This document shows, one piece after another, positions 11,810 to 60,718 of a DNA stretch of 63,221 nt. Position 1 is the stretch's first letter; each line of letters starts with the position of its first letter. Source of the stretch: Burkholderiaceae bacterium (GTDB lineage Bacteria; Pseudomonadota; Gammaproteobacteria; Burkholderiales; Burkholderiaceae_C); NCBI GenBank assembly GCA_030654805.1, contig JAURWR010000090.1:1-63221 (forward strand), read 5' to 3'. The notes under the pieces are model-generated. The model made no database searches. It was not told where the DNA came from and was given only the letters and a program-made list of their open reading frames with translations. Position numbers and translations under genes: made by a program.

Positions 11810-11814
11810 GCTGT

Positions 11815-44838: not shown

Positions 44839-46040
44839 TGCCGAAGGTGGTCTGTCTGCTGCAGGCAATCGCTCGCACGCTCTGGTCGGGCACGGGTGAA
44901 CGCACGGGCATCAAGGGCTTTCATGCATTCGACGGTCTGCGCGGCTACATGGCTTGGTGGGTCGTGATCGGTCATGGTCTGCACTTGTGCGGCCTTCAGA
45001 ACATTGCACCGGCCTTTCTTTCCAGCGGTGACCATGCCGTGAACGTGTTCGTGAGCCTGAGTGGCTTCGTCATTTCACATCTGCTCCTGGAAAGGCGCGA
45101 GCCTTATGGCAGATATCTGGTGCGACGGGCATTTCGCATCTTCCCCATCTACTGGTTCGCGCTGGTTTGCGCCCTGTTGCTGGCGCAGATGTATGGCACT
45201 GTGTATGCAGGCGACTGGGTCTTCCAGCACGAGATGCGAGCGGCGCGCGCTATCGCCACGGAAGCAGAGTTCAGCAAGTACTTTCTGCTGCACGTCAGCC
45301 TGCTGCACGGCTTGGTGCCCGATACTTGGTTGCCATTCAGCTCGACGGCATTTCTCGCCCCGGCGTGGAGTCTGTCGCTGGAATGGCAGTTCTACCTCGT
45401 CGCCCCGTTTGTGGTCGCTGGCCTCGCAAGGCCAGGTATTTCAAGGCTTCTCACGCTTTTACTTCTGAGCGCGGCGTGGGTGTTATTCAAGAAAGTGCTT
45501 CCTTTGCAATGGCAGTACCCGGCAGTGCTTCCACTTTCCATACATTTCTTCATGCTCGGCATCCTGTCGCGGGTATTCCTTCCGGTGCTGTCGAACATCG
45601 GTTTCTGGTTACTTCCCGTCGTCCTGCTGATGGCTGGGTTGGCTCCCCATTCAGTGAGTACAGAGGTGGCTGTATGGGGCGTCTTCCTTGCCGCTGCTTG
45701 CCTTCAGCTGCGCACATCGCAAGCGAAGGGAGACATCCAGGCCCCCTCCGGGTTCTCCAGGCTCTTGGAATTCGTCACATCAAACTCGGCAGCGCGTTGG
45801 CTGGGAGAGTTTTCCTATTCGACGTACCTCATTCACATCGCTCTTTTTTCGCTGGTCGGCGGGATTGCTGCGAAGCTCGGCGGCGCATGGACTCAGCACC
45901 TTGCCATGGTCAGCACGTCCATTGCCATCGTCCTTCTCATACCGCTGAGTTACTGGCTGTACCGGTTCATAGAAAAACCTTTCATCCGCTGGGGCGCCGC
46001 GTTGGCGAAACCCAAGGGCATTTCACTCAAGGCGGGGTGA
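44838..46040 (+). CDS. Acyltransferase family 3 (OafA-like) membrane protein
   Basis: The 400-residue integral membrane protein begins with the hallmark GFHAFDGLRGYMAWWVVIGHG and has RRAFRIFPIYW further on, with about ten membrane helices. Members O-acetylate sugars of exopolysaccharides and O-antigens, taking the acyl group from cytoplasmic acyl-CoA. ATG at 44838 shares one base with the previous stop; an upstream GTG at 44835 would add one residue. This is a second acylation enzyme in the locus besides the MBOAT protein at 52525-53964. Confidence 0.9.
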   Translation: MPKVVCLLQAIARTLWSGTGERTGIKGFHAFDGLRGYMAWWVVIGHGLHLCGLQNIAPAFLSSGDHAVNVFVSLSGFVISHLLLERREPYGRYLVRRAFRIFPIYWFALVCALLLAQMYGTVYAGDWVFQHEMRAARAIATEAEFSKYFLLHVSLLHGLVPDTWLPFSSTAFLAPAWSLSLEWQFYLVAPFVVAGLARPGISRLLTLLLLSAAWVLFKKVLPLQWQYPAVLPLSIHFFMLGILSRVFLPVLSNIGFWLLPVVLLMAGLAPHSVSTEVAVWGVFLAAACLQLRTSQAKGDIQAPSGFSRLLEFVTSNSAARWLGEFSYSTYLIHIALFSLVGGIAAKLGGAWTQHLAMVSTSIAIVLLIPLSYWLYRFIEKPFIRWGAALAKPKGISLKAG

Positions 46041-47119: not shown

Positions 47120-48586
47120 TTGACCAACGACTTGCGCGCCAAGGTCAGATCGGGCGTCTTGTGGTCCGCCGTCCAGAACTGGGGGGTGCGGCTGAGTTCG
47201 CTCCTGCTGTTCATGGTGGTCGCACGCTGGTTGTCTCCGGAACAGCTTGGTCTTTTTGCGGCAGCGACCGTGGTGATCGCATTTCTCAACCTGCTGGCCG
47301 AACAGGGCCTCGGTGAGGCGCTGGTCCAGCGCGAAGAGATCACGCAGGAACAGATCAACTCGGTGTTCTGGCTCAACATGGGTGCGTCGCTGCTGATCGT
47401 CGGTTTTCTGTGGTTCGTTGCGCCGCTGATCGCAGGGTTCATGAAGCTGCCCGAACTGGTCTCGATCCTGCGCGTCGCTTCGTTGTCAATGCCACTGACC
47501 GCGGCTTCGTTCGGTCAGTTGGCCATGCGCAGGAGGCGCTTCGAGTACCGATGGCTCGCAAAGACGGTGCTGGCATCCACGATGGTCTCGAGCGCGGTAG
47601 CCCTGGCGATGTTGTTTGCCGGCCTCGGCGTCTGGAGTCTGGTGGCCCAGAGCCTCACCACTGCCGCCGTGATCACTGCCTTGTTGTGGATCAGGCCGAG
47701 CTGGCACCTCACGATGAAGACCGATTTCTCCGCCACGCGTCCCATGATGGGTTACGGCGCGAAGCGGGTCTCGACTTCCCTGCTCGACTTCGCCAATACG
47801 CGATACATCGAACTGTTCCTGGCCTCCACCTTGGGGCCTGCATCGCTTGGGCTGTACACGGTCGGCGTGCGTGTCTATCAGGCGCTCATGCAGGTCTTCA
47901 GTTCGACCATTCTCGAAGTGGCGCACAACGGTTTCTGTCGCATGGCAGCGGACAGGCCAGGCTTGATCCGTTCCTATTTTCAGAGCATCGCAGCCACTGC
48001 GGCGATCGTGATGCCGGTGTTCATTCTGATTGCGGCGGTGGCCCCGTCGCTGACGGTCACGCTGTTCGGTGCACGCTGGGTCGCCAGTGCAGAGGTCACT
48101 CGATGGGTGGCCTTGCTGGGTGCCGTTCAAGTCTTGCAGGTCTATAACGGCACGGTCTACAACGCCATCGGCCGGCCTGGCGTGGGGCTGCAGTTCATGA
48201 TCGTCAAGGTGATGTTGACTTTCGGTGCGCTGTTCCTTGCCAGGGACGCCGGCCTGCAAGTCCTTCTCCACGCCTACGTGGCCAGCCAGTTGGCAACCAC
48301 CCCCCTGAGTTTCTGGCTCGTGCGGCGATTGATCGGTGTGTCGTTGACGGAGCTGTTTCGGACTCTGTGGCCATTTGTGCTGTCCAGCGCAGTCATGGCC
48401 GTCATGGCGCTCGGCGTCGCTTCGCTGCTCGAAGCGAGGTCGGTCCCCGCTCCACTGGTCTTGCTGGTTGCATGCGCTGCTGCTGTCAGCGTGTACCTCC
48501 TCTGCCTGCAATTTTTCGCACCTGCGGCACTGCAGACGGGCCTTCGGTTCCTTCGACCAGGACGGCAGTCCACTGCTGTCGCTTGA
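47120..48586 (+). CDS. wzx: Lipopolysaccharide/exopolysaccharide flippase (Wzx-like)
   Basis: The 488-residue protein has about 12-14 membrane segments and begins LRAKVRSGVLWSAVQNWGVRLSSLLLFMVVARWLSPEQLGLFA, typical of the MATE/MVF-related Wzx group. GYGAKRVSTSLLDFANTRYIELFLAST is a further hallmark. It should flip the finished lipid-linked repeat across the inner membrane. The start is TTG at 47120, with AAGGGGA at good distance; no ATG lies near. Confidence 0.93.
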   Translation: MTNDLRAKVRSGVLWSAVQNWGVRLSSLLLFMVVARWLSPEQLGLFAAATVVIAFLNLLAEQGLGEALVQREEITQEQINSVFWLNMGASLLIVGFLWFVAPLIAGFMKLPELVSILRVASLSMPLTAASFGQLAMRRRRFEYRWLAKTVLASTMVSSAVALAMLFAGLGVWSLVAQSLTTAAVITALLWIRPSWHLTMKTDFSATRPMMGYGAKRVSTSLLDFANTRYIELFLASTLGPASLGLYTVGVRVYQALMQVFSSTILEVAHNGFCRMAADRPGLIRSYFQSIAATAAIVMPVFILIAAVAPSLTVTLFGARWVASAEVTRWVALLGAVQVLQVYNGTVYNAIGRPGVGLQFMIVKVMLTFGALFLARDAGLQVLLHAYVASQLATTPLSFWLVRRLIGVSLTELFRTLWPFVLSSAVMAVMALGVASLLEARSVPAPLVLLVACAAAVSVYLLCLQFFAPAALQTGLRFLRPGRQSTAVA

Positions 48587-48623
48587 ATCTTTAGCCAAAC
48601 CAGCGCTGAACTCTCAACACGCC

Positions 48624-49919
48624 ATGCCCCTCGAATACCTGAAACAACTCCGCCGGCGCTTTTTCGCATGGCGTGACATTTCCGCACTGATAAGGCAACT
48701 CGCTCATCACGTGCGCGGCATGCCCGAGCCGAGCGAATCCATGGCGCTGCGGCGCCTGTTGATATTGCCCAGCGATCCCTGGACGCTGGTCGGTGCCAAA
48801 GGTGACGAAGCCATGATGCAAGCGGTGGTCGGCCGTCTTCGGCAATACAGCTCCGACCTGCAGGTCGGCGTGATCACGGCAACGCCAGTCGCTCATGCGG
48901 CAGCGGGTCAACTCGGATTCGTGTCAGTTCCCGCGTGGGACTGCAGCCTCGGTGAAGTAGCAAGCCAGATCGAGGCATTCCATCCCGATGCGATGGTGGT
49001 GCTGGGCGCCGACGTACTGGATGGCTACTACAACCCGGTCACGACAAGCCGAATGCTGCTGATGGCTGATGCCGCTGCTCGGCACGGTGTTCGCGTTTCG
49101 ATCCTGGGCTTCAGCTTCAACAATCGACCGAACAGTCTGGTCAAACCGGTGTTCGAGGGCCTGAGCAAGCGCATGGCGATCAACGTACGGGATCGTGTTT
49201 CATTCGATCGCTTCCGCGCATTCTGCAATGCGCCATGCCGCCTCGTTGCGGACTCTGCCTTCATGCTGGAAGCAGACTTCAGCGGCGACACCGTGCAGGC
49301 GGTAGAGCGTTGGTCGACGAGTCGGCGAGCGGCAGGCGATGTCATTTTGGGTTTCAACATGCACCCGATGCTTTTCCGCCATGCCAGTTCGGCACAGATC
49401 AATGCTCTGGTGGGCAGCGCCGTGAGCGCACTTCGCGCTGTGGCGCAACGCCGCCGTGTGTCCGTGCTGCTGCTGTCTCACGACTACCGTGGGCACGATG
49501 GCGACGATGTCTGTCTGGCCCCGATTGCGCTGGCGCTGGCTGACGAGCTCGGCCCGCAGCTGAACTACCCGACTACTCAGTTCTCGGCAGCACAGCTGAA
49601 GGCCATGGCCAGCTTCACCGATGGCGTCGTGACCGGTCGCATGCATCTGGCGATCGCGACGCTGGGCATGGGCCGTCCGGTCGCTGCGTTGACCTACCAG
49701 GACAAGTTCCAGGGACTGTTCGCGCATTTCGAATACCCCGAGCGCTTTCTGCTAACGCCTGCAGCCGCTGCACAAGCCAGCAGCCTGACCGCCATGGTGG
49801 AAGAGTTTGTGGACCGTTTGCCGGAGTTGACAAAGTGCGTGCGGGATCATCTGCCCGCAGTCAGAGAGGCATCCTTCCTCAATCTGGAGCGTGTGCTGCC
49901 GAGTAACGCGGTCGCGTGA
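48624..49919 (+). CDS. Polysaccharide pyruvyltransferase family protein
   Basis: The 431-residue protein has the pyruvyltransferase layout: LLILPSDPWTLVGAKGDEAMMQAVV near the N-terminus, GVRVSILGFSFNNRP in the middle, and VVTGRMHLAIATLGMGRPVAALTYQDKFQGLF with the conserved Arg-Met-His at the C-terminal side. It would add a ketal-linked pyruvate from phosphoenolpyruvate and give the glycan a negative charge. The ATG at 48624 is the first in a sensible position after the flippase gene; the upstream part of the longer reading has no similarity. The next gene is convergent, 57 bp away. Confidence 0.86.
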   Translation: MPLEYLKQLRRRFFAWRDISALIRQLAHHVRGMPEPSESMALRRLLILPSDPWTLVGAKGDEAMMQAVVGRLRQYSSDLQVGVITATPVAHAAAGQLGFVSVPAWDCSLGEVASQIEAFHPDAMVVLGADVLDGYYNPVTTSRMLLMADAAARHGVRVSILGFSFNNRPNSLVKPVFEGLSKRMAINVRDRVSFDRFRAFCNAPCRLVADSAFMLEADFSGDTVQAVERWSTSRRAAGDVILGFNMHPMLFRHASSAQINALVGSAVSALRAVAQRRRVSVLLLSHDYRGHDGDDVCLAPIALALADELGPQLNYPTTQFSAAQLKAMASFTDGVVTGRMHLAIATLGMGRPVAALTYQDKFQGLFAHFEYPERFLLTPAAAAQASSLTAMVEEFVDRLPELTKCVRDHLPAVREASFLNLERVLPSNAVA

Positions 49920-49976: not shown

Positions 49977-51197
49977 TCACCCGCGAGTGCGCAGCAGCGA
50001 GTCGACCGCCTCCCCGACGATCTTTCGAAAGCGCTCCTCTGTCAGCGTGGTCGTGATGCGCTGGTAACCACAGCGCGCGATCTCACTGGCTCGTTGCGGT
50101 GTGCGCAGCATGGCCACGCAATGGCGTGCCAGCCCGGCCGGGTCCGCCGCCGTCAGCACGTCGTCACCGGGCCTGAACAGCGGGTGGTGACCCTCCACCA
50201 CCAACGGCGTGGCGATGACCATGCGGCCGTACAGATACGGCTCCAGCGCCTTGATGTTCGTGCCCGCGCCGGACCGCATCGGCACCACGCAGGCGGTGGC
50301 CCGCGCATAGGCGTCGGCCAGCGAATCGACAAACCCGAGCGTCTCGACGCTGGGGTGCCGGCGCCACCGCTCCAGGCGGTCATCGGCGCCGCTGCCAACG
50401 ATCAAAAAATGCGCCTCCGGTACCTCACGCAACACGATCGGCCAGATGGCGTCGAGAAACCAGTCGACCGCATCGTGATTCGGCATGTAGTCCAGCAGGC
50501 CGACGAACATCAGAGCCGGTTGTTCCGGGGGTGAAAAGTCAGGCGGTCCTTCACGATCGGCGGCTGGCGGCAGGTTGGGCAGCACAGCGCCCGGTAGCCA
50601 TCCGAACACCTCACGCTCGGCATCGCGACAAAACAGATAGTGCGCGTGGCGCCACGACGCTCCTTTGAGTCGCGTGCGCACGATGATTCGATCATTGAAC
50701 AAGCGAAGCAACACGCCGACCCAGCTTTTCACAGTGCGCAACGCGTACCAGGGCGGGTCGTAGACGGCATCGTCGAAGTCGACGATCAACGGCACACCGC
50801 AGGGCAGTTCGAGCTTCATGGCGGGTCGCACGTAGCGACTGACCAGCAGGTCATATGCAGCCAGGTCGACATGCTGCGCAACCTGGCTGCTGACATCGCT
50901 GGAGGTCAGGTCGAAGCGCGGGCGACTGAGCAAGCCGCGCTGCACGATTTGCAGGTCCATCACCTTGACACCGTCCAGATCGGTCACGGTCAGAGACGCC
51001 TCGGCATCTGCGACATCCACGAAGCTGAGAACAAGCACGTCGACGGTGCCGTGGAGCTTCAGGGCATCGACAAGAAAACGCGAGCGTTTGGCCGAACCCC
51101 ACCTTTGAAGCGGAGAGATGTAGGTCAGCAACAGTATCTTCGGGCGCCGCGCTGGTGTGTCCAGCACTGCGGCAGGGTCGGTGAGCGACGGCTTCAT
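49977..51197 (-). CDS. Glycosyltransferase (GT-B), on the opposite strand within the second locus
   Basis: The 406-residue protein starts KILLLTYISPLQRWGSAKRSRFLVDAL and has LMFVGLLDYMPNHDAVDWFLDAIWPIV and ACVVPMRSGAGTNIKALEPYLYGRMVIATPLVVEGH, the TIGR03087-like pattern seen also at 14628-15845 and 43570-44838. ATG at 51197 (MKPSLTDP) is preferred to the longer reading to 51257. It is transcribed against its neighbours, from a region shared with the plus-strand SGNH gene, so it may be controlled separately. Confidence 0.88.
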   Translation of the reverse strand: MKPSLTDPAAVLDTPARRPKILLLTYISPLQRWGSAKRSRFLVDALKLHGTVDVLVLSFVDVADAEASLTVTDLDGVKVMDLQIVQRGLLSRPRFDLTSSDVSSQVAQHVDLAAYDLLVSRYVRPAMKLELPCGVPLIVDFDDAVYDPPWYALRTVKSWVGVLLRLFNDRIIVRTRLKGASWRHAHYLFCRDAEREVFGWLPGAVLPNLPPAADREGPPDFSPPEQPALMFVGLLDYMPNHDAVDWFLDAIWPIVLREVPEAHFLIVGSGADDRLERWRRHPSVETLGFVDSLADAYARATACVVPMRSGAGTNIKALEPYLYGRMVIATPLVVEGHHPLFRPGDDVLTAADPAGLARHCVAMLRTPQRASEIARCGYQRITTTLTEERFRKIVGEAVDSLLRTRG

Positions 51198-51715
51198 CGG
51201 GTCCCCCAGCGGCCCACTCTCGATCGGCGACGCTGCACCCGTCGTGGCACGGCCCACAGCGTCAACCGGTGCAGGCCGCAGGATTCCGTTGTTCCGGCCG
51301 CTGGGGTCGAGGAGCTCATCTTTGGTAATCAGTCAGTCAGTATCAAAAGAAAAATTGAACGTTGGCTCAGGCTCAGCCGCACGCTGACGTGGCCGGTCAC
51401 GTCAGCGCGAGCGGCAAACCGGGCACCCACATCAGGGCAAGCGCCAAGACGATTGTGTGCAAATGCCGGTGCAGCCGAGCCCTTCGCAACATTTGGTATC
51501 CATAAAGCCCGCAACTTCGATGCCGGGATAGGGCACATTCGGCGCCCGAGGCGCCATTGGGTGCTTGGCGGGGTGCATTTCAGCGACTTCGTGTTCGGCG
51601 AGCGCGGTAGCCATGCTCCGAGACGTCACCTGTGGGTGAGTCGTCGGCCTCGTGGCGAGGGCCGACCACAGCACATTGGCCCGCATCCTGCAACCGGTCC
51701 GGCAAACTCCTGTCA
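51198..51715. other. 518-bp divergent intergenic region
   Basis: No credible gene is seen. It should contain the promoters of the minus-strand glycosyltransferase and the plus-strand acyl-modification genes. The short direct repeat CAGTCAGTCAGT lies near 51330. The 11-base sequence CGCAACATTTG at 51485-51495 recurs at 59981-59991, also upstream of a plus-strand gene. No strong sigma-70 or sigma-54 pattern was found. Confidence 0.45.
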
Positions 51716-52513
51716 ATGGTCAACATGAATTTTTTCGCGAAGCCATTTTTCCTCTCGCTGTCATTGGCCTCGTTCCTGGTCATCGTTCATGCCGAGACCG
51801 GTGCGAATGCGCCAGACACGTTCGCCGCTCCAGCCTCAGCAATATCGGCCTCCGGCCCCACCCCCTTCCCCACCGACGCCAAGGATTGGCCCGGCAAGGG
51901 CGTGATCCGCGTCTTTGGCTGGATGACCGACAACCGCAAGGCGTTCTGGCTCGAGCGCGAGCGCAAGCAGGGCAGCGTGGTTTTTGCGGGCGATTCGCTG
52001 ATCGGCGGCTGGAGCGGTCTGGCCAGGGATCTGCCGGGTCTTCCCGTGGCCAACCGGGGCATCGGCGGCGAAGTCACGCGCGGGTTGCTGTTTCGCTTCA
52101 AGGAAGACGTGCTGGACTTGCACCCCCGGGCCATCGTCCTGCTGAGCGGCACCAACGATCTGAGCGCACTGCAAGACGTTCAGCAAACACGCAGCAACCT
52201 CGTCGAGGTGCTGGACCGGGCCGAGCGCTCGTCACCCGGCGTGCCGATCGTGCTGTGCACACTGCCGCCGCGCAACCAGCCGAAGGCTCCGGTCGATCCG
52301 AAGCGGCTGATCGAACTCAACTCACTCATCAAATCGGCAGCACAGGGCCGCGCCCACGTGGTGGTCCTCGACCTGTACGCGCTGCTGGCCGACCCGGATG
52401 GCACACCGCACGCCGAGTATTTTGCGGCTGACAAACTGCACATCTCGCCCGCTGGCTACAAGGTCTTCGGTGATGCGCTGGCGCCGCTGTTCAAGCAGTT
52501 CAAGCGGGACTGA
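51716..52513 (+). CDS. Secreted SGNH/GDSL hydrolase
   Basis: This 265-residue precursor has an N-terminal signal peptide (about residues 1-30, ending HAETG), so it is periplasmic. The SGNH blocks are all present: VVFAGDSLIGGW (Ser nucleophile), VANRGIGGEVT (block II Gly), LLSGTNDLS (block III Asn) and FAADKLHISPAGY (block V Asp-x-x-His). Together with the MBOAT and AlgJ-like genes behind it, it may remove or transfer acyl groups on the polysaccharide. ATG at 51716 or 51725 are both possible. The downstream gene follows after 11 bp. Confidence 0.9.
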   Translation: MVNMNFFAKPFFLSLSLASFLVIVHAETGANAPDTFAAPASAISASGPTPFPTDAKDWPGKGVIRVFGWMTDNRKAFWLERERKQGSVVFAGDSLIGGWSGLARDLPGLPVANRGIGGEVTRGLLFRFKEDVLDLHPRAIVLLSGTNDLSALQDVQQTRSNLVEVLDRAERSSPGVPIVLCTLPPRNQPKAPVDPKRLIELNSLIKSAAQGRAHVVVLDLYALLADPDGTPHAEYFAADKLHISPAGYKVFGDALAPLFKQFKRD

Positions 52514-52524
52514 GAGACGCGACC

Positions 52525-53964
52525 GTGGCTTTCACCTCGCCGAGCTTCATCGCTTTCATCCTGGTTGTGGTGCTGCTCACCCACGCGCTGCCGTCTCCGG
52601 CCGGTCGCAGCGGCGTCTTGCTGCTGGCCAGCCTCGTGTTCATCGGCAGCTATGTCGACAGCATCGGTCAGGTCGGCCCGCTGGCGGCCTTTCTGCTGCT
52701 TGGCTATCTCGTCGTCGAGGGCGTGCGGCGGAGCCGCTCTGCGGCCAGTCTGTGGTTGGGACTGGTCGGCGTGATCGCGAGCTTCATCGTGTTGAAGAAA
52801 TTCAGCTTCCTGGGCGACTCGCTGGTGCTGCCGTTCCCCTACCTGATCGTCGGGCTGTCCTACGTGCTGTTTCGCGTGCTGCACCTGATGATCGATGCGA
52901 AGCAGGGCGAACTCGCTGCGCCCATCGCACCGCTCCATTTCTTCAACTACACCTGCAACTTTCTCTCCTTCATTGCCGGTCCCATTCAGCGATACGGTGA
53001 CTACGCCCTGCAAAAAGACCGGGCACGGGTGCTCGATGAAGAGACGGTGTTTCACGCCTTCGCCCGCGTGATCAAGGGCTTCCTGAAAGTCGGCGTGGTG
53101 TCGGCGATCTTCAATTACCTGTTCAGCAGCATGTCGGGTCGGTTGCTGGACACCGGGCTGGCGCCCGCGCTGCCGCTGATGTGCGGCCTGTTCGTGGCTG
53201 CGGCGCTCTTCTACACGGTCTACCTGTATGCCAACTTCGCCGGCTACATGGACATCGTCATCGGCGTCGGCACGTTGATGGGCCAGGAGTTGCCGGAAAA
53301 CTTCAACCGGCCTTTCACCGCGCGCAGCTTCCTCGACTTCTGGTCGCGCTGGCACATGACGCTGTCGGACTGGTTCAAGACCTATGTCTTCAATCCGCTG
53401 ATGAAGGTGCTGGCCACCCGCTTCACGTCTCCCAAAGCAGGCCCCTACCTCGGTGTGGTGGCGTTCTTCGTGACGTTCCTGATCATGGGGGTCTGGCACG
53501 GCACGACATCGGTGTTCGTCGTGTATGGGTTGCTGATGGGCGCGGGCGCCAGCGTCAACAAGCTGTGGCAGGTGGTCATGACGAAGCGGCTGGGCAAGAA
53601 GGGCTACAAGGCACTCGCCGACCGGACGGCCTTCATCTACCTGTCTCGCGGCCTCACGCTGGCCTACTTCGCGCTGGCGCTGACCTGCCTCTGGGTGGAC
53701 ATGCGCCAGTTGTCGTGGCTGGCAGGCCATCTCGGCGTCTTCGGCCTCGCATCGTGCTACCTCGGCCTGGCGGTCGCGGCAGGGGCCGCCTTCTTCGCCT
53801 GGGACAGGTTTGCGGCGCTGTTGACGCCGTTCAGCCAGGCCGTGACGCATCGGTCCGGCGGCGTGATCGTGCGCAACCTGTCGCTCGCCTTCCAGATCCT
53901 GCTGATCGTCACCGTCGCCTCGTTCTTTCACAAGGCGCCGGAGTTCGTCTACCGGGCCTTCTGA
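52525..53964 (+). CDS. MBOAT family O-acyltransferase (AlgI-like)
   Basis: The 479-residue membrane protein has about eleven hydrophobic segments and the family signature FLDFWSRWHMTLSDWFKTYVFNPL (His277) and MGVWHGTTSVFVVYG (His325, matching the catalytic His of AlgI). It also has NFAGYMDIVIGVGTLMGQELPENFNRPF. Such proteins move an acyl group across or within the membrane to a periplasmic acceptor, with AlgJ/AlgX-type SGNH proteins as partners. It starts with GTG at 52525 and overlaps the next gene (TGATG). The acyl donor here may come from the carrier-protein module downstream. Confidence 0.93.
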   Translation: MAFTSPSFIAFILVVVLLTHALPSPAGRSGVLLLASLVFIGSYVDSIGQVGPLAAFLLLGYLVVEGVRRSRSAASLWLGLVGVIASFIVLKKFSFLGDSLVLPFPYLIVGLSYVLFRVLHLMIDAKQGELAAPIAPLHFFNYTCNFLSFIAGPIQRYGDYALQKDRARVLDEETVFHAFARVIKGFLKVGVVSAIFNYLFSSMSGRLLDTGLAPALPLMCGLFVAAALFYTVYLYANFAGYMDIVIGVGTLMGQELPENFNRPFTARSFLDFWSRWHMTLSDWFKTYVFNPLMKVLATRFTSPKAGPYLGVVAFFVTFLIMGVWHGTTSVFVVYGLLMGAGASVNKLWQVVMTKRLGKKGYKALADRTAFIYLSRGLTLAYFALALTCLWVDMRQLSWLAGHLGVFGLASCYLGLAVAAGAAFFAWDRFAALLTPFSQAVTHRSGGVIVRNLSLAFQILLIVTVASFFHKAPEFVYRAF

Positions 53965-55052
53965 TGAAGCTCGTCATCAAGCAGATCGTCCAATTGATCG
54001 GCGCGCTGATCGCGTTGTACGGGGTGTTGCTGGTTGTCAGCCTGCTGCTGGTGCCACGCTCCGACACCGGCCCGCGCCTGAATGCGGGGCAGGCTTCGTC
54101 CTCGCTGTTCCTGACCGAGCCGAAGTACGTGTTCATGGCGCGCAGCCAGTTGAACTCGGTCGCTGACAAGGTGCTGTTGCTGGGCGCGTCGAACATGCTC
54201 GTCGGCTTCAAGCAGGCGCAGGTGCAGGCCCTGTTGCCGGACATCGAGGTGCACAACCTGTCGGTGGGCGGATCCAACATCGGCCAGGTCAGCCAGATCG
54301 TCGATCTGATCCGCGAAGTGCAAAGCCCCGAGGCACGCCGACACAACACCTACGTCATCGGCCTGTGGTACGGGGTCTTCGCCTCGGACAAGGCGCGCTG
54401 GAACACCCCGGATCGGCATGCGGGAGACACCGACATCGACATCGAGCGCTATCGCTATGGCTTCTACCGGCGCACCGATGCCGGCGCCGTTCCTGTGTTG
54501 CCGCCGGGATATCTCGACGCAGGCGTGCTGCTGATCCACCCCTACCTCGTGCTGGACCGGACGGCTCGCGACTTGACGCGGTCGCTGCGCGAGTTCATGG
54601 CGGCCAAGCCACCGTCGATGACGGATGCGCAACGCAACGCGGTGGTGATCGATGACGCCGACCAGCGCAAGTACCTCGCCTTCTGGCGTGACTACATGGG
54701 CTCGACCGACACGCTCGGCGACGCCCCGTTTCAAGTCCTGCAACGCACGGTCGAGGGCATCCTGGCCGAAGGCGGCCGCGTGATCCTGGTCGACATGCCG
54801 ATTCCCCGGTGGCATGCCCGGGCGTCGCCGCTTTCCGCCGACTACCGCACGCACCTTGACTCGCTGCTGAGCGGTCTGCAAGGACACGCCGAAGTCACCG
54901 TTCTGAGGATCGACGGCGCCGATGCCGATGAAGACTTCAGCGACGAAGTCCACCCCAAGCCGCGCGTGACCGAGCACTGGGCGCAGCATCTGGCCGCTGC
55001 CATCAAGGCCAGCACGGCCTTGAACCGGTCGCCATCGGCCAGCGCACGCTGA
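53964..55052 (+). CDS. AlgJ/AlgX-like SGNH-fold protein, membrane-anchored
   Basis: The 362-residue protein has one N-terminal membrane segment (about residues 8-28) and a periplasmic SGNH-like domain. Block I reads LLLGASNMLVGF, so the usual Asp of GDS is Ala while the Ser remains. Block II is NLSVGGSNIGQVSQ, and the catalytic Asp/His pair is likely FSDEVHPKPRVTEHW. It is the expected partner of the MBOAT protein and may carry the acyl group to the polysaccharide. Both genes overlap, which suggests coupled synthesis. The Ala replacement is noted as unusual. Confidence 0.75.
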   Translation: MKLVIKQIVQLIGALIALYGVLLVVSLLLVPRSDTGPRLNAGQASSSLFLTEPKYVFMARSQLNSVADKVLLLGASNMLVGFKQAQVQALLPDIEVHNLSVGGSNIGQVSQIVDLIREVQSPEARRHNTYVIGLWYGVFASDKARWNTPDRHAGDTDIDIERYRYGFYRRTDAGAVPVLPPGYLDAGVLLIHPYLVLDRTARDLTRSLREFMAAKPPSMTDAQRNAVVIDDADQRKYLAFWRDYMGSTDTLGDAPFQVLQRTVEGILAEGGRVILVDMPIPRWHARASPLSADYRTHLDSLLSGLQGHAEVTVLRIDGADADEDFSDEVHPKPRVTEHWAQHLAAAIKASTALNRSPSASAR

Positions 55053-55107
55053 ACACCTTCGATCCGACCCGCCCCCATCCACTCCCGAATCTTCAAGGAA
55101 CCCCGCC

Positions 55108-55350
55108 ATGAGCACCGATGCCCTCTATGCCAAGCTGACCGCCATCTTTCACGATGTGTTCGACGATGAAAGCATCGTGGTGACACCGGAGCTGACCGCC
55201 GACGACGTCGACGAATGGGACAGCCTCAGCCACATCCGGCTCGTGCTGGCGATCGAGAAGAAGTTCGGTCTGAAGTTCTCCGCCGCCGAAGTCGGCCGTT
55301 TGAAGAACGTCGGCGAGTTCGCTTCGCTGATCGTGACCAAGACGGCATGA
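55108..55350 (+). CDS. Acyl carrier protein
   Basis: The 80-residue protein is acidic and has the phosphopantetheine attachment motif EWDSLSHIRLV, with Ser39 as the modified residue. AAGGAA precedes the ATG at 55108. It is likely the carrier for the acyl group handled by the FkbH-like, MaoC and SDR enzymes encoded next to it and finally delivered to the MBOAT protein, since similar carrier proteins accompany FkbH enzymes. The next gene overlaps by 4 bp (ATGA). Confidence 0.93.
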   Translation: MSTDALYAKLTAIFHDVFDDESIVVTPELTADDVDEWDSLSHIRLVLAIEKKFGLKFSAAEVGRLKNVGEFASLIVTKTA

Positions 55351-55778
55351 CCCACGCACCTCCCTCGCGGGTGCTGGCGCTCGGCGAGCTGGTCGAGGGC
55401 TTGCAAGCCTGCGTCGATTTCTCGGTCACGGCGACGCAGATGCAGCAGTTCGCTGAACTCTCCGGCGACTTCAATCCACTGCATACCGACGACGAGTTCG
55501 CCCGCGCCAAGGGCTTCGACGGCGCCGTCGTGTACGGCGCGCTGATGGTGGCCAAGGTGTCGCAGCTGATCGGCATGCAATTGCCCGGGCGCGACAGCGT
55601 GTGGGCCAGCGTCGCGCTCGACTTCCGCAAGCCGCTCTATGTCGGGCAGGCCGCACAGGTCGAAGGCGTGGTCACGGAGGTGTCGGAGTCGACCGGGATG
55701 GTGGTGCTCAAGGTCACGGTTCGCGCCGCTGGCAAGGTGCTCGCCAAAGGCACGGCGGAGGTGGTCGTTGGACGTTGA
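55347..55778 (+). CDS. MaoC-like (R)-specific enoyl hydratase
   Basis: The 143-residue protein has a hot-dog fold with the hydratase 2 motif AELSGDFNPLHTDDEFA, including catalytic Asp41 and His46. Such enzymes add water to trans-2-enoyl thioesters to give (R)-3-hydroxyacyl thioesters, or the reverse. Here it may act on a thioester bound to the neighbouring carrier protein. Start and stop overlap or abut the flanking genes. Confidence 0.9.
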   Translation: MTHAPPSRVLALGELVEGLQACVDFSVTATQMQQFAELSGDFNPLHTDDEFARAKGFDGAVVYGALMVAKVSQLIGMQLPGRDSVWASVALDFRKPLYVGQAAQVEGVVTEVSESTGMVVLKVTVRAAGKVLAKGTAEVVVGR

Positions 55779-55785
55779 CCTGAGC

Positions 55786-56469
55786 ATGGCGCGGCCCGCC
55801 GCCGAAAGATGGTTCCTGGTCTCCGGTGGCTCAGGCGGCATCGGAGCCGCCGTGTGCGATCAGCTCGCTGCGCGCGGCTTCACCCCCGTCGTGGGTTACC
55901 ACCGCAACGCGGCCGGGGCCGAGTCCGTCGCACAACGAACCGGTGGCCACACGCTGGCGCTCGACCTCGGCGACGAAGCCTCCATCCTGGCGGCGGTGGC
56001 GCACCTCGAAACCGCACCGATGCTCTGCGGCGTAGTGCTCGCCGGTTCGCCGCCGCTCTCGCTGGTGCCGTTCGGCAAGATCACCGCCGACGAGATGCAG
56101 CAGCAGTGGCAGGTCAACGTGCTGGGCCCGCAGCGACTGCTCGCCGAGCTGGTTCGACGTTGTTTTCGAAAACACAAGCAAGGATCGGTGGTGGGCGTGC
56201 TGACACGTGCCATGGGCGACGGCATCGCTGGCGCCGCCTCGGGCATGGGGGCGTATGTGATCGCCAAGCACGGCATGGCCGGCATGCTGGCCATGCTCGC
56301 TGCCGACTACCCCTGGCTGCGCGTGGGAGCCGTGAAACCCGGCTACACGGAAACACGCATGCTGGCTGCTTTCGATGAGCGCTTTCTCGCCATGCAGCGC
56401 GAGAAAGCCCCGTTCCAGACGCCCGAGCAGGTGGCGTCGCTGATTCTCGAGGAGGCCCTCGGCTCATGA
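55786..56469 (+). CDS. SDR-family oxidoreductase
   Basis: The 227-residue protein begins with a cofactor-binding Rossmann motif WFLVSGGSGGIGAAV (residues 9-23). The active-site Tyr157 and Lys161 are in AYVIAKHG and Asn111 in VNVLG. The Ser usually found 12-13 residues before the Tyr is missing: Gly144/Asp145 are there, and the nearest candidates are Thr140 and Ser152. It may still reduce or oxidise a carrier-bound acyl group, but activity should not be taken for granted. ATG at 55786 was chosen; a TTG at 55768 is possible. It overlaps the FkbH-like gene by 4 bp. Confidence 0.85.
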   Translation: MARPAAERWFLVSGGSGGIGAAVCDQLAARGFTPVVGYHRNAAGAESVAQRTGGHTLALDLGDEASILAAVAHLETAPMLCGVVLAGSPPLSLVPFGKITADEMQQQWQVNVLGPQRLLAELVRRCFRKHKQGSVVGVLTRAMGDGIAGAASGMGAYVIAKHGMAGMLAMLAADYPWLRVGAVKPGYTETRMLAAFDERFLAMQREKAPFQTPEQVASLILEEALGS

Positions 56470-58406
56470 GCAACGCTCTCTATTCGCAACTCGCATGGCT
56501 GCCCGCGGCACCCGATGATTTCTCCGCCTCGTGCCGCCACTTGCTGAGCGAACCAACCGAGCTGGGCACGCGCCTGCAGCGTCTGGCCAACCACGCGCTG
56601 GACGAGAACCAGCTGAACCGCCTGGCCAAGGTGATCGACAAGGCACGCGAGGCCGGCCACTCGCTCGCGCCGCTGACGCCGTTTCGCATCGGCCTCATCA
56701 GCAACGCGACCTCGCACTTCATCGTGCCAGCGCTCGTTGCCAGCGCCGCCCGCCACGGCATCGCGCTGGAATGCATCGAGGCCGACTACGACCAGGTGAT
56801 GCAGGCCGCGTTGTCACCCGATTCACCGATCCACCGGGCGCAATGCGACGCCGTGCTCGTGGCCGTCGACCACCGCGGCCTGCCGCTGGCCGCCACGCCG
56901 GGGGATGCACAGGCGGCGCAGGCCGCCGTGGAGGCGGCACTCGGCCACCTGAACATGATCCGCAACGGCCTGCGCAGCCACAGCAAGGCGATCTGCATCG
57001 TGCAGACGCTGCCGCGGCCCGTGGAATCGTCGTTCGGCAGCTTCGATTTCGTGCTGCCGGGCACGCCGCGTCAACTGATCGACGAGGTCAATCGCGGCAT
57101 CGCGCTGAGCGTGGCCGGCACCGAAGACCTGCTGCTCGATGTGGCCCACATCGCCGAGACGGTGGGGCTGGCCGACTGGCACGACACGACGCTGTGGAAC
57201 ATGGCGAAACTGCCGTTCGCCAGCGCCTTCCTGCCGCTCTATGCGGACCATGTGTGCCGCCTGATCGCGGCCGTGCGCGGCAAGAGCCGCAAGTGCCTGA
57301 TCCTGGACCTCGACAACACGCTGTGGGGCGGTGTGATCGGCGACGACGGCCTCGAAGGCATCGTCATCGGCCAGGGCGATGCCACCGGTGAAGCGCACCT
57401 GCAGGTTCAGCGCACCGCCCTCGCGCTGCGTGACCGCGGCGTGGTGCTGGCTGTGTCGTCGAAGAACACCGACGAGATCGCGCGCCAGCCGTTTCGCAAA
57501 CACCCCGAGATGCTGCTGCGCGAAGACCACATCGCGGTCTTCCAGGCCAACTGGAACGACAAGGCGACCAACATCAAGGCGATCGCCGAGGAGTTGTCGC
57601 TCGGCCTCGACGCGATGGTGTTCCTCGATGACAACCCGGTCGAGCGGGGTCTGGTGCGTCGGATGCTTCCGCAGGTGGCCGTGCCCGAATTGCCCGACAA
57701 CGCGGCGCTCTACGCCCGCACGCTGCTGGCGGCGGGCTACTTCGAGGCCATCGCGTTTTCCGGCGAAGACCGGCAGCGCGCCGAGTTCTACCAGGACAAC
57801 GCGCGCCGCGTAACGCTGCAGAAACAGGCGGGTGACGTCGATGCGTACCTGGTGTCGCTGAACATGCAGATGACGCTGCAACCCTTCGACGACACCGGGC
57901 GCGCGCGCATCGCGCAGCTCATCAACAAGTCGAACCAGTTCAACCTGACGACACGGCGCTACACCGAGGCCGATGTGGCGGCGGCACAAAGCGATGCCGA
58001 GGTCTTCACATTGCAGGTCCGGCTGGCTGACACCTTCGGCGACAACGGCATGATCAGCGTGCTGATCTGCCGCCGCCAGGGCGACGACTGGCACATCGAC
58101 ACCTGGCTGATGAGTTGCCGCGTGCTGGGCCGCAAGGTGGAAGTCGCCGTGCTGCAAGAGCTGATCGCTCAGGCCGGCGCGCGGGGTGTGCAGCGGCTGA
58201 TCGGCAACTACCTGCCGACCGAGAAGAACAAGCTGGTCGAGGAGCACTACGCCAAGCTCGGCTTCACGCTGCTGGAGACGCTGGACGCGGGCGGCACGGT
58301 GTGGGAGTTGCGCGTCGACGGCGCCGCGTCGGCAGCGCTGCCGATCGCGATTCAGCGGATCGGTTTCGCGTCGACCGCCGAGACTTTGGACGCGGCGCAT
58401 TCTTGA
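56466..58406 (+). CDS. FkbH-like HAD-family acyl-carrier loading enzyme
   Basis: The 646-residue protein has three parts. An N-terminal SGNH/flavodoxin-like region (to about residue 250) is followed by a HAD domain with LILDLDNTLWGGVIGDDG (Asp281 and Asp283), AVSSKNTDEIA and MVFLDDNPVERGLV. A GNAT-like C-terminal region contains NKSNQFNLTTRRYTEADV and DTFGDNGMISVLI. FkbH enzymes dephosphorylate 1,3-bisphosphoglycerate and load a glyceryl group onto a carrier protein; the same architecture here, next to an ACP gene, suggests the same or a related acyl. Its 3' end overlaps the convergent glycosyltransferase gene by 55 bp. Confidence 0.92.
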   Translation: MSNALYSQLAWLPAAPDDFSASCRHLLSEPTELGTRLQRLANHALDENQLNRLAKVIDKAREAGHSLAPLTPFRIGLISNATSHFIVPALVASAARHGIALECIEADYDQVMQAALSPDSPIHRAQCDAVLVAVDHRGLPLAATPGDAQAAQAAVEAALGHLNMIRNGLRSHSKAICIVQTLPRPVESSFGSFDFVLPGTPRQLIDEVNRGIALSVAGTEDLLLDVAHIAETVGLADWHDTTLWNMAKLPFASAFLPLYADHVCRLIAAVRGKSRKCLILDLDNTLWGGVIGDDGLEGIVIGQGDATGEAHLQVQRTALALRDRGVVLAVSSKNTDEIARQPFRKHPEMLLREDHIAVFQANWNDKATNIKAIAEELSLGLDAMVFLDDNPVERGLVRRMLPQVAVPELPDNAALYARTLLAAGYFEAIAFSGEDRQRAEFYQDNARRVTLQKQAGDVDAYLVSLNMQMTLQPFDDTGRARIAQLINKSNQFNLTTRRYTEADVAAAQSDAEVFTLQVRLADTFGDNGMISVLICRRQGDDWHIDTWLMSCRVLGRKVEVAVLQELIAQAGARGVQRLIGNYLPTEKNKLVEEHYAKLGFTLLETLDAGGTVWELRVDGAASAALPIAIQRIGFASTAETLDAAHS

Positions 58407-59623
58407 AAATTCGCCGAGGCGTGTTTCAGCAAGACCTGCCACTTCCGTTGCAAAACCGGGTGGGAAAAGTTCAGCCGGACGAAGCCGCGAGCGGCCGTTC
58501 CGAGACGATGGCAGGCGTCCGCATCGTTGGTCAACCGCTGAATGGCCCTGGCGAACTCGCCGGGTGTTTGCGTCACGATGCACTCGGTGCCAGGCGTGAT
58601 GCCCAGCCCCGCCACGGCCTGCTCGGTGGCGATGACGGCCAGACCGTTCGCCATGGCCTCCAGCACTTTGGTCTTGATGCCGCCTTCAGCCACGATCGGC
58701 GCCACGAAGACCGCGTACCGACCGAGGGTCGAGACCAGGTCATCGACGTAGCCGAGATAGACCGTGCGTCCGAACGGGTCCCGGGGCCGCAGCGCGACCG
58801 GCGCGTTTCCGACGACGTGCAGCGCAATGGCGCAGCCTGAACGTTCCAGCTCCGGCGCGATGTGCTCCAGGTAGTGCGTGACCGCGTCCAGGTTGAGCTG
58901 GTAGTCCAGCCCGCCGACGAAAGCCACGGCATGCGTGTGGCGGCCGGCGTGATCGATGCGCGCGGCATCGGCGATGTCGATGCCCATCGCCGTGTCGTGC
59001 ACCACGCGCCCCAATCGACGGGCCAGCTGGGCGGCCTCGATCGACGACACCAGCGTGACCGCATCGGCCCGCATGCCGTAGTGAACTTCTTGTGAGGCAA
59101 TTCGGCGCGCCTCGACACGCAGGAGACGGTGCGCGGCCCACGCGGCCAGACGGCGCAGCGGTGCCGGCAGCCGCTGCGAGAAATAGCCCAGCAGGTTGTG
59201 GCCTCGACCGGCTGCGGCAAGCGCCGCGTAGCGGTCGGAGAGCAGGTCGTCCAGATCGAGGATCCACGGCACGCGCAACCGGGCACAGAACTGCGCGGTG
59301 CGGATCATGTCGGCCACCACGACGTCGTATCGACCGCTGACCACCAGGTCGGCAATCCGCTGCTGTGCGGGCCGGCTCCAGTAGAGGCACTCGTTCAGAC
59401 TTTTTCGGCCCAGCAGGAAATGCCGGACGAGATTGGCGCCGACCTGCACGACACCCGGCCCCGGGATCGGGATGCCGCTGCTGCCGAGACCCGGTGAGCC
59501 GATCACCGCGATGTCGACCTGGTGCCCCAACGCTGTGCAGCTGCGCATGATCGTGCGGAGAACGAGCTTGCGCCCGGTCTGCGGGTCGTCGACATCGCGA
59601 GTCGCGACCAGGAGGACCTTCAC
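58352..59623 (-). CDS. Glycosyltransferase (GT-B), convergent to the FkbH-like gene
   Basis: A 423-residue protein from a GTG at 59623, whose first strand KVLLVATRDVDDPQTGRKLVLRTIM is typical of this group. The donor domain has AVAFVGGLDYQLNLDAVTHYLEHIAPEL and VFVAPIVAEGGIKTKVLEAMANGLAVIATEQAVAGLG. GTG is chosen because the upstream part of the longer reading has no similarity; the ribosome binding site is weak. Its last 55 bp overlap the end of the FkbH-like gene on the other strand. Confidence 0.86.
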   Translation of the reverse strand: MKVLLVATRDVDDPQTGRKLVLRTIMRSCTALGHQVDIAVIGSPGLGSSGIPIPGPGVVQVGANLVRHFLLGRKSLNECLYWSRPAQQRIADLVVSGRYDVVVADMIRTAQFCARLRVPWILDLDDLLSDRYAALAAAGRGHNLLGYFSQRLPAPLRRLAAWAAHRLLRVEARRIASQEVHYGMRADAVTLVSSIEAAQLARRLGRVVHDTAMGIDIADAARIDHAGRHTHAVAFVGGLDYQLNLDAVTHYLEHIAPELERSGCAIALHVVGNAPVALRPRDPFGRTVYLGYVDDLVSTLGRYAVFVAPIVAEGGIKTKVLEAMANGLAVIATEQAVAGLGITPGTECIVTQTPGEFARAIQRLTNDADACHRLGTAARGFVRLNFSHPVLQRKWQVLLKHASANFQECAASKVSAVDAKPIR

Positions 59624-60040
59624 GCGGCGGGACCGCGTGGCGAACGCCGACAAGAGTGCACGAATGTTCCGATCAAAAACGAGCCCCGCAACGACCGAGT
59701 CTGCCCCAACCGCGGCCCGCGCGACGCGCTGTTCAGCGCTTGCGCAAGGCGATCGCCGACGTGCTGGGTCGAGCTTCGCTGCGAATGCAGCATGAACTGC
59801 AAGCAATTGACGCGCCCCATCGCCGCACATGCCACGCGTGGCAAGCACAGATCACGGCCGCTGCGTGAAGTGCCCCCTCAGATATCCATTCGAAAAATGT
59901 GTCAACACGACTAACACGTAAGCACATGCAAGGGGATGAGCCTGACACATAAAAACAGTGCAAAACTTCTCATGACGCACCGCAACATTTGTGGAACGCA
60001 TGTTGCTCGTACGGTGTAAGCCGCAATCTGGGAGATCGAA
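59624..60040. other. 417-bp divergent intergenic region
   Basis: No credible gene. It holds the promoters of the glycosyltransferase (minus) and the sugar-phosphate transferase (plus). Part of it, from about 59890 on, is more AT-rich than the coding DNA. An inverted repeat at 59982-60006 is described separately. Confidence 0.5.
59982..60006. promoter_or_regulatory. Inverted repeat, possible operator
   Basis: GCAACAT and ATGTTGC are perfect 7-bp arms separated by 11 bp, 34 bp upstream of the sugar-transferase ATG. The size fits a dimeric repressor or activator site. TTGTGG within the spacer could be a -35 element, but no good -10 was seen at 17 bp. Confidence 0.4.
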
Positions 60041-60718
60041 ATGTTTGCTGCTGGTGCTTCCTCAAGTGACTCACTGTCGTTGCTGCGCCCATCACATCGG
60101 GCCGGCAACGTCAGCGCCGTTTATGCCGCTGTCAACAAGCTGGTCGCGCTGCTGCTCTTGTGTCTCTTCGCCCCGTTGATGCTGGTGATCGCGTTGCTGA
60201 TCGCCCATCGGGACGGAATGCCCATCTTCTTTGGCCACTACCGGGTCGGAGTGACTGGGAAACTGTTTCGATGCCTGAAATTTCGCACCATGTACCGCGA
60301 CTCCTCTCAAATGCTGGCCGACCTGTTGCGAGACGACCCGGCAGCGCGCGCAGAGTGGGCGCGTGACCACAAGCTCGGCAACGATCCGCGCATCACTCCG
60401 GTGGGAAATTTCCTGCGCCGCACCAGCCTGGACGAGTTGCCGCAACTGATCAATGTCGTGCGCGGCGAAATGATGCTCGTCGGTCCACGCCCGATCACCG
60501 TCGGAGAGCTGTGCCGATACGGCCGCGTTCGTTGGGACTACCTGAGCGTGCTGCCGGGCATGACCGGTCTGTGGCAGGTCAGTGGACGCAGCGAAACAAC
60601 TTATGAAGAACGGGTCGCGCTCGATCTCCAGTACGTGGAGAAGCGATCGGTGTGGATGGACGTCATGATCTTGCTGAAGACCGTCAAGGTGGTTCTGGTG
60701 CGAGACGGCTCTCGGTGA
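60041..60718 (+). CDS. Monotopic sugar-1-phosphate transferase
   Basis: The 225-residue protein has one hydrophobic segment (about residues 35-55) and the catalytic core of bacterial sugar transferases: YRVGVTGKLFRCLKFRTMYRDS, DPRITPVGNFLRRTSLDELPQLINVVRGEMMLVGPRPI and GMTGLWQVSGRS. It should transfer hexose-1-phosphate to undecaprenyl phosphate and begin the second polysaccharide. Compared with the enzyme at 27568-28968 it lacks the N-terminal membrane and CoA-binding-like domains. ATG at 60041 follows GGGAGATCGA. The two initiating enzymes support two distinct glycans. Confidence 0.93.
   Translation: MFAAGASSSDSLSLLRPSHRAGNVSAVYAAVNKLVALLLLCLFAPLMLVIALLIAHRDGMPIFFGHYRVGVTGKLFRCLKFRTMYRDSSQMLADLLRDDPAARAEWARDHKLGNDPRITPVGNFLRRTSLDELPQLINVVRGEMMLVGPRPITVGELCRYGRVRWDYLSVLPGMTGLWQVSGRSETTYEERVALDLQYVEKRSVWMDVMILLKTVKVVLVRDGSR

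Follow-up and report, generated by a model that had tools for sequence, protein, structure and literature searches.

Two kinds of bacterial acyl transfer bear on the locus described here. In membrane-bound O-acyltransferase (MBOAT)-SGNH pathways, as set out in PMC12148441, PatA acetylates a tyrosine within its C-terminal FXYXXF motif and DltX bears the same motif as a microprotein; pathways other than Dlt are portrayed in that source as having neither a carrier protein nor a DltX-like microprotein. FkbH proteins act on acyl carrier proteins (ACPs): a single table row in PMC7901079 lists FkbH loading as leading from 1,3-bisphosphoglycerate to D-lactate-ACP, and FkbH-loaded glycerate is described as being O-methylated in cyanobacterial peptides (PMC10143770). 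Here we analysed a block of seven genes at positions 51716-58406 of a 63,221-nucleotide stretch of DNA from a Burkholderiaceae bacterium (contig JAURWR010000090.1; this whole stretch is called the window), in which genes of both kinds stand side by side. This cassette is best explained as an MBOAT-SGNH pathway that is fed by a carrier protein and O-acylates an exopolysaccharide, resembling Dlt with FkbH in place of DltA. From the sequence data we estimate a probability of roughly 0.7 that the cassette is a carrier-fed relay handling an FkbH-derived C3 acyl group.

All seven genes lie on the plus strand in the order SGNH, MBOAT, SGNH, ACP, MaoC, short-chain dehydrogenase/reductase (SDR) and FkbH; this order, proposed in an initial annotation of the window, was borne out by family matches and the coordinates were refined. 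The genes are tightly packed, with frames overlapping or separated by short gaps. The longest intergenic gap is 55 nt, between the second SGNH gene and the ACP gene, while the MBOAT and second SGNH frames overlap at 53964 (TGATG) and overlaps of 4 nt occur between ACP and MaoC as well as between SDR and FkbH.

We scanned a named-genome collection (one genome per species, 84,980 species) with the FkbH alignment and kept the best 80 of 526 confirmed candidates, picked by FkbH similarity alone, so that nearer relatives of the cassette may be missing. Adding the window itself and L033 and L034, both located by way of their MBOAT, brought the set to 83 loci. An ACP lies within 6 kb of FkbH in 76/80 loci (79/83 with the added loci, 70 of these within 300 bp) and an MBOAT in 54/80 (57/83). 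In 52/83 loci the MBOAT is found within 2 kb of FkbH, and a same-strand MBOAT is likewise present in 52/83. Record titles among the MBOAT-bearing loci include Acidobacteriaceae, Eremiobacterota, Nitrospina, Magnetococcales, Verrucomicrobia, Myxococcaceae, Omnitrophota and many Proteobacteria. An SGNH-like gene was detected near the MBOAT in 44 of the 57 loci by a cluster or motif rule; a further locus, L056, has a Pfam GDSL match below the threshold. Whether the gene order recurs elsewhere had been named beforehand as a check, and FkbH, ACP and MBOAT are indeed neighbours in many genomes. These counts show that the grouping of the genes is not due to chance. The conserved FkbH-ACP-MBOAT core, usually accompanied by an SGNH gene, is therefore observed directly, as are the gene order, the intact catalytic motifs and the shuttle motif described below. 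Conservation of this neighbourhood also supports the earlier suggestion that a carrier-bound acyl group, glyceryl or modified, may be handed to the MBOAT and from there to the glycan.

As an unselected control we used 399 genomes of the window's order, of which 112 have any MBOAT. Apart from the window's own, 17 FkbH genes in 16 of these genomes exceed the cut-off, the two pieces in G113 being counted as one. By coordinates, four of the 17 have an MBOAT within 6 kb (G113, G055, G143, G254), where gene density alone would lead to about 0.02 such pairs, a rough figure that assumes some 145 MBOAT genes over roughly 1.6 Gb. Conversely, a tblastn search (1e-2) of a further 28 MBOAT loci from the order (L005-L032), with flanks of at most 1.5 kb, gave no ACP match. 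These results bear on the idea that the cassette performs ordinary alginate-type O-acetylation from acetyl-CoA and that ACP, MaoC, SDR and FkbH belong to an unrelated adjacent pathway. The tail motif of the MBOAT is shared with users of acetyl-CoA such as PatA (PMC12148441), which would agree with this idea. Yet the neighbourhood is repeated across many genera and several phyla as well as in 4/17 unselected FkbH genes of the order, and the other MBOAT loci are without a nearby ACP save for L005, where it lies further out, and a weak match in L038/L009. We consider simple acetylation very improbable.

The HAD-type FkbH (56466-58406, plus strand) matches TIGR01686 with 295 bits against a cut-off of 147 and the FkbH_N Pfam family with 2.8e-8; its DxDxT HAD motif, two lysines, a DD pair and Cys551 are invariant in 83/83 aligned rows. 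The ACP (55108-55350, plus strand; PF00550, PP-binding, 1.1e-4) carries a DSL phosphopantetheine site at Ser39, and this serine is retained in 79/79 aligned rows. Its best PDB match is 2lml, a 'putative acyl carrier protein' (1.2e-19); this is a Geobacter ACP, for which involvement in lipopolysaccharide synthesis has been proposed. Family scans revealed no adenylating enzyme among the seven genes; FkbH is there instead of DltA.

The MBOAT (52525-53964, plus strand, GTG start; PF03062, 1.1e-17) consists of a DltB-like core followed by C-terminal helices bearing the acyl-shuttle hexapeptide FVYRAF, an instance of FXYXXF, encoded at 53944-53961 on the plus strand, with Tyr476 as the proposed acyl acceptor. 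Its sole NCBIfam match is to DltB (TIGR04091) with 175 bits, under the equivalog cut-off of 375. A profile built from 44 MBOAT sequences matched DltB alone in the PDB (2.5e-68). The structure model (pLDDT 89.7) gave DltB at Foldseek ranks 1-3, with TM-scores of 0.70-0.71 relative to the query and 0.80-0.81 relative to DltB. AlgI and PatA do not occur in the PDB match lists of the MBOAT, whether by profile or by Foldseek, which leaves room for kinship with either. Across the 57 aligned MBOATs His325 is retained in 57 rows and His277 in 56, L033 having Asn.

The shuttle tyrosine is present in 50 of these 57 sequences, gapped in six and lost in one, the frame-broken open reading frame (ORF) of L088. 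One of the six gapped MBOATs ends at a contig edge (L092); the other five measure about 400-430 aa. Each of these short, intact MBOATs without a tail is accompanied by a small hydrophobic DltX-like protein ending in [FIL]xYxxF. Two of these microproteins have the exact FXYXXF motif (L034:10872-10985 and L097:14375-14494), and in three the first motif residue is I or L (L056:11843-11959, L081:13233-13334, and L084 with an ORF end at 11808 and an uncertain start). We set the relaxed motif against a background count: 52 out of 16,303 ORFs of 25-60 aa (1.59 Mb) end in it, namely 44 MBOAT tails including that of L088, the five microproteins and three others. The five loci with a tail-less intact MBOAT are precisely those that encode the microproteins, whose best 18-residue hydropathy ranges from 1.81 to 2.73, compared with at most 1.07 for the three other motif ORFs.

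The second SGNH protein (53964-55052, plus strand, ATG at 53964) is membrane-anchored and was recognised as an SGNH protein from its motifs and its fold, the latter tentatively DltD-like. Its G75-x-S77 and D328-x-x-H331 are invariant among five sequences, the window and four relatives. It has no Pfam or NCBIfam match, and a PDB search with its alignment at 0.1 returned none. Foldseek ranks 1-8 are all DltD (E 2.7e-4 to 1e-3, model pLDDT 61.5), with PatB at rank 42. We propose this protein as the final transferase to the glycan. The transfer pair had originally been likened to AlgI and AlgJ; searches with a specific answer returned DltB instead (NCBIfam, PDB profile, Foldseek), and DltD by Foldseek, and the AlgI/AlgJ identity was set aside. 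With DltB and DltD as its nearest counterparts in these searches, the transfer pair is best modelled on the Dlt relay, which itself uses a carrier protein and is absent from the initial annotation. The first SGNH/GDSL hydrolase (51716-52513, plus strand, ATG at 51716; PF13472, Lipase_GDSL_2, 2.9e-24) appears to be secreted; its translation, inspected by eye, shows GDS, GTND and DKLH blocks as well as a stretch at the N-terminus that resembles a signal. It is possibly a terminal O-acyltransferase or a trimming esterase.

Between ACP and FkbH lie two potential tailoring genes. The first encodes a MaoC/PhaJ-type hydratase-dehydratase (55347-55778, plus strand; PF01575, 4.8e-17), to which the nearest solved structure is 1iq6, an (R)-specific enoyl-CoA hydratase (2.2e-18). 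Its catalytic-type D41 and H46 are retained in 19/21 rows; the exceptions are a partial ORF in L082 and a match in L105 (30 bits), which was rejected as chance. The second encodes an SDR reductase (55786-56469, plus strand, start probably ATG 55786; PF00106, adh_short, 2.6e-20) with a YxxxK motif at Tyr164 and Lys168, numbered from a start at 55765. A PDB search with the SDR at 1e-13 gave no match. Sorted by tailoring genes, the 83 loci comprise 12 with a MaoC-SDR fusion, 5 with separate MaoC and SDR, 3 with MaoC only, 1 with SDR only and 62 with neither. The SDR-only locus is L040, whose FkbH is 96% identical to that of the window and whose contig starts inside MaoC. The 12 fusions follow from our own rule and include L082, where the partial ORF is on the other strand, and L088 at a contig end; Pfam confirmed the fusion in L049, L077 and L087 (3/12). 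Fusion was judged by Pfam on these three and on L125, since pairwise alignments to the window proteins were short (21-155 residues). The MaoC profile drifted toward the fused form on iteration. In the order sample three further fusion-type matches lie near FkbH (L122, L124, L126; by profile only).

A further case from the order sample is L125 (1-10518, minus strand, genome G148), a polyketide synthase frame that opens with MaoC (residues 23-100), SDR (308-495), FkbH (750-1066), PP-binding (1180-1244) and ketosynthase (KS, 1299-1671) domains. No ketosynthase stands ahead of the MaoC-SDR-FkbH-ACP domains in this frame, and MaoC and SDR therefore act, most simply, on the C3 unit loaded by FkbH. 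This arrangement speaks against a reading in which the acyl on the ACP is of the (R)-3-hydroxyacyl kind, for instance 3-hydroxybutyryl, furnished by MaoC and SDR from fatty-acid or polyhydroxybutyrate metabolism, while FkbH is a separate source or uses another substrate. Such a role would suit the resemblance of MaoC to (R)-specific enoyl-CoA hydratase and the presence of 3-oxoacyl-ACP reductases among the family matches of the SDR. In L125, however, a single chain holds both activities together with FkbH and ACP before the KS, and neither the seven genes nor the scanned flanking genes include a ketosynthase; we regard a 3-hydroxyacyl product as improbable. FkbH-ACP-MaoC/SDR fusions with no MBOAT within 6 kb were noted in L087 (Mycobacterium sp. 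1245111.1), L063 and L089, and the FkbH-ACP-MaoC-SDR combination thus probably feeds other acceptors too; a different acceptor or a different acyltransferase is to be expected in these three loci.

A second alternative is that FkbH, ACP, MBOAT and SGNH transfer plain glyceryl, with MaoC and SDR serving another pathway or proofreading. Since 44/57 FkbH-MBOAT loci are without both MaoC and SDR, the core must be able to handle its acyl group without them, and glycerate esters do occur on a bacterial gum, gellan, in the L form (PMC9104527). Against this stand the position of MaoC and SDR between ACP and FkbH in the window, with frames overlapping or almost touching, the renewed grouping of ACP, MaoC, SDR and FkbH in L047, L051 and L056, and the fusion of MaoC to SDR in other FkbH loci and in the polyketide loading module. 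For the window we hold plain glyceryl to be unlikely. The initial annotation had named glyceryl or an acyl altered by the hydratase and SDR: the altered form gains from the presence of both genes, which point to lactyl, and the unaltered form loses, although in the family at large both genes are optional.

The tailoring genes seem to travel independently of the transfer core. L051 and L052 share 84% identity in FkbH, 82% in MBOAT and 75% in ACP, whereas MaoC and SDR were seen in L051 alone (L052 was viewed 5.7 kb upstream of FkbH, to the contig start, and 10 kb downstream). The closest MBOAT relatives in the set, L044 and L074 from Bradyrhizobium (identities of 52-54% for MBOAT, 39-40% for SGNH and 65% for ACP), have no MaoC and SDR within 6 kb. 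On the FkbH tree the presence of MaoC/SDR switches at least 19 times and that of MBOAT 15 times; this was a quick tree of 98 rows, built with no mixture model and with long-branch warnings and 27 open forks, in which MaoC-only and polyketide synthase loci were scored as having MaoC/SDR. A methyltransferase-type family, named from one or two members, lies near FkbH in 17 loci. Seven loci (L059, L060, L071, L078, L052, L044, L119) have a small glyoxalase/methylmalonyl-CoA-epimerase-like protein near FkbH, from a family (cluster c10) that is below the NCBIfam cut-off and named from one or two members; it perhaps epimerises glyceryl- or lactyl-ACP. FkbH-ACP-MBOAT-SGNH modules were also seen in L062, L064-L068 and L075, from Sphingomonadaceae and other Alphaproteobacteria, several of them with a methyltransferase-type gene. 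These are candidates for hydroxy-acid esters on sphingan-like gums, with a stereochemistry that does not obviously fit: the glycerate of gellan is L and that drawn from 1,3-bisphosphoglycerate should be D, so the cassette is not an obvious source of gellan glycerate.

For the relay as a whole we infer every reaction, the identity of the acyl group and the acceptor glycan, as follows. FkbH would load a D-glyceryl group from glycolytic 1,3-bisphosphoglycerate, which should yield D-glycerate, onto the ACP. MaoC would remove water (2-H, 3-OH) from glyceryl-ACP, giving enolpyruvyl- and pyruvyl-ACP, and the SDR would reduce the 2-keto group to form lactyl-ACP. The lactyl starter of the bryostatin type is the precedent that suggested glyceryl dehydration. 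The DltB-like MBOAT would then take the acyl from the ACP to Tyr476 of its own FVYRAF tail, and the DltD-like SGNH protein would accept it on its serine and pass it to the polysaccharide, with the secreted SGNH hydrolase assisting or trimming. We give lactyl about even odds of being the acyl in this organism, and rank plain glyceryl next.

Several observations weigh against this relay and have to be set beside the evidence above. The DltD match of the second SGNH protein is drawn from a poor model (pLDDT 61.5, 4 sequences), the MBOAT scores below the DltB equivalog cut-off (175 vs 375 bits), and 'DltB rather than AlgI' is a result of nearest solved structures, not of phylogeny. Not every FkbH has an MBOAT as neighbour: 26/83 loci have none within 6 kb, 17 of them with at least 6 kb of sequence on both sides, and 13/17 FkbH genes of the order sample likewise lack an MBOAT within this distance. 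At least three of these 13 are domains of megasynthase-sized frames (L125, L127, L128), and three are on contigs below 7 kb (L128, L135, L136). The control of other MBOAT loci has its own irregularities, as L005 is the G055 locus, an FkbH locus with its ACP just past the searched flank, and L038, a wider stretch of the G138 locus (L009) with no FkbH, gave a weak ACP match at about 11701-11892 with an E-value of 0.003. This ACP-like match in L038 might be due to chance or belong to a further carrier-fed variant. The case for lactyl depends on those loci that have MaoC and SDR, both genes being missing from 44/57, and the literature consulted contains no record of a PhaJ-type MaoC dehydrating glyceryl.

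The block lies between two minus-strand glycosyltransferase genes, one at 49977-51257 and the other at 58352-59848; as called, the second overlaps FkbH at its 3' end. A scan of the flanking genes showed that an exopolysaccharide cluster surrounds the block, with Wzz-type proteins, an export protein, glycosyltransferases and a GH16 hydrolase. The cluster further includes a polysaccharide-flippase-family protein (47120-48586), a bacterial sugar transferase (60041-60718), a pyruvyl-transferase-family protein (48375-49919) and an AT3-family acyltransferase (44835-46040). Given the last two, the polysaccharide may bear further acyl and pyruvyl groups. PMC11340318, on promonan, deals with an enzyme of the AT3 type and not with an MBOAT. 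In the genome to which the window belongs (3.87 Mb, listed as 100% complete with 3.87% contamination), FkbH and MBOAT have one match each. FkbH was found in 0/11 same-family genomes of the order sample, and the cassette is thus patchy in distribution.

Among the titles and passages listed by our searches of the open-access literature, none describes glycan acylation by FkbH, ACP and MBOAT. The parts and the logic of the relay are known; their combination seems new, judged by these searches. The FkbH loci appear to have a carrier protein, and five of them also a DltX-like microprotein, both of which are said in PMC12148441 to be absent outside Dlt. They thereby allow the tyrosine-shuttle model to be tested independently. 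PMC4432689 names glyceryl and lactyl groups as exopolysaccharide substituents, and the loci would explain at the level of genes how hydroxy-acid esters come to be on bacterial polysaccharides, besides offering a swappable means of altering the chemistry of bacterial gums. We lean slightly towards the existence of a second, widespread class of carrier-fed MBOAT-SGNH glycan acylation in Gram-negative and other bacteria, with an acyl group drawn from glycolysis by FkbH, a shuttle tail either fused or present as a DltX-like microprotein, and interchangeable tailoring genes (MaoC and SDR for lactyl, possibly a methyltransferase for O-methylglyceryl), resulting in different hydroxy-acid esters among related bacteria.

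Compared with known systems, the cassette shares FkbH and a stand-alone ACP with FkbH-ACP glyceryl loading in tetronate and methoxymalonyl pathways and with FkbH domains of nonribosomal peptide and polyketide synthases, and as there, partner enzymes would tailor a carrier-bound C3 unit (PMC7489565, PMC10143770). The product of those systems enters a natural product, whereas that of the cassette would be tailored by MaoC and SDR and reach a membrane acyltransferase and a glycan. Clusters of the aeruginosin type also contain an MBOAT, proposed in PMC10143770 to modify another part of the peptide. The polyketide loading module of L125 unites MaoC, SDR, FkbH and ACP in a single frame that continues with a KS; the cassette has separate proteins, and the MBOAT would replace the ketosynthase as taker of the acyl group. 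With PatA-PatB, AlgI-AlgJ-AlgX and WssH-type O-acetylation it has in common an MBOAT with C-terminal FXYXXF, an SGNH partner and, presumably, a polysaccharide as acceptor; the window MBOAT possesses both conserved histidines (H277, H325) and FVYRAF, as alginate-type MBOATs do. Those systems are stated in PMC12148441 to use acyl-CoA and to be without a carrier protein, whereas the cassette has an ACP and its presumed loader. The likeness to Dlt, the D-alanylation of teichoic acids by DltA, DltB, DltC, DltD and DltX, extends to the presumed acyl thioester on a small carrier and to the FXYXXF shuttle, which in five relatives is a separate microprotein like DltX (PMC12148441, PMC11035591), and to the pairing of a DltB-like MBOAT with a putatively DltD-like SGNH protein. 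The differences are that FkbH stands where Dlt has the ligase DltA, that the predicted acyl is lactyl or glyceryl rather than D-alanine, that the acceptor is presumably an exopolysaccharide, and that the window MBOAT carries the shuttle motif as part of its own chain.

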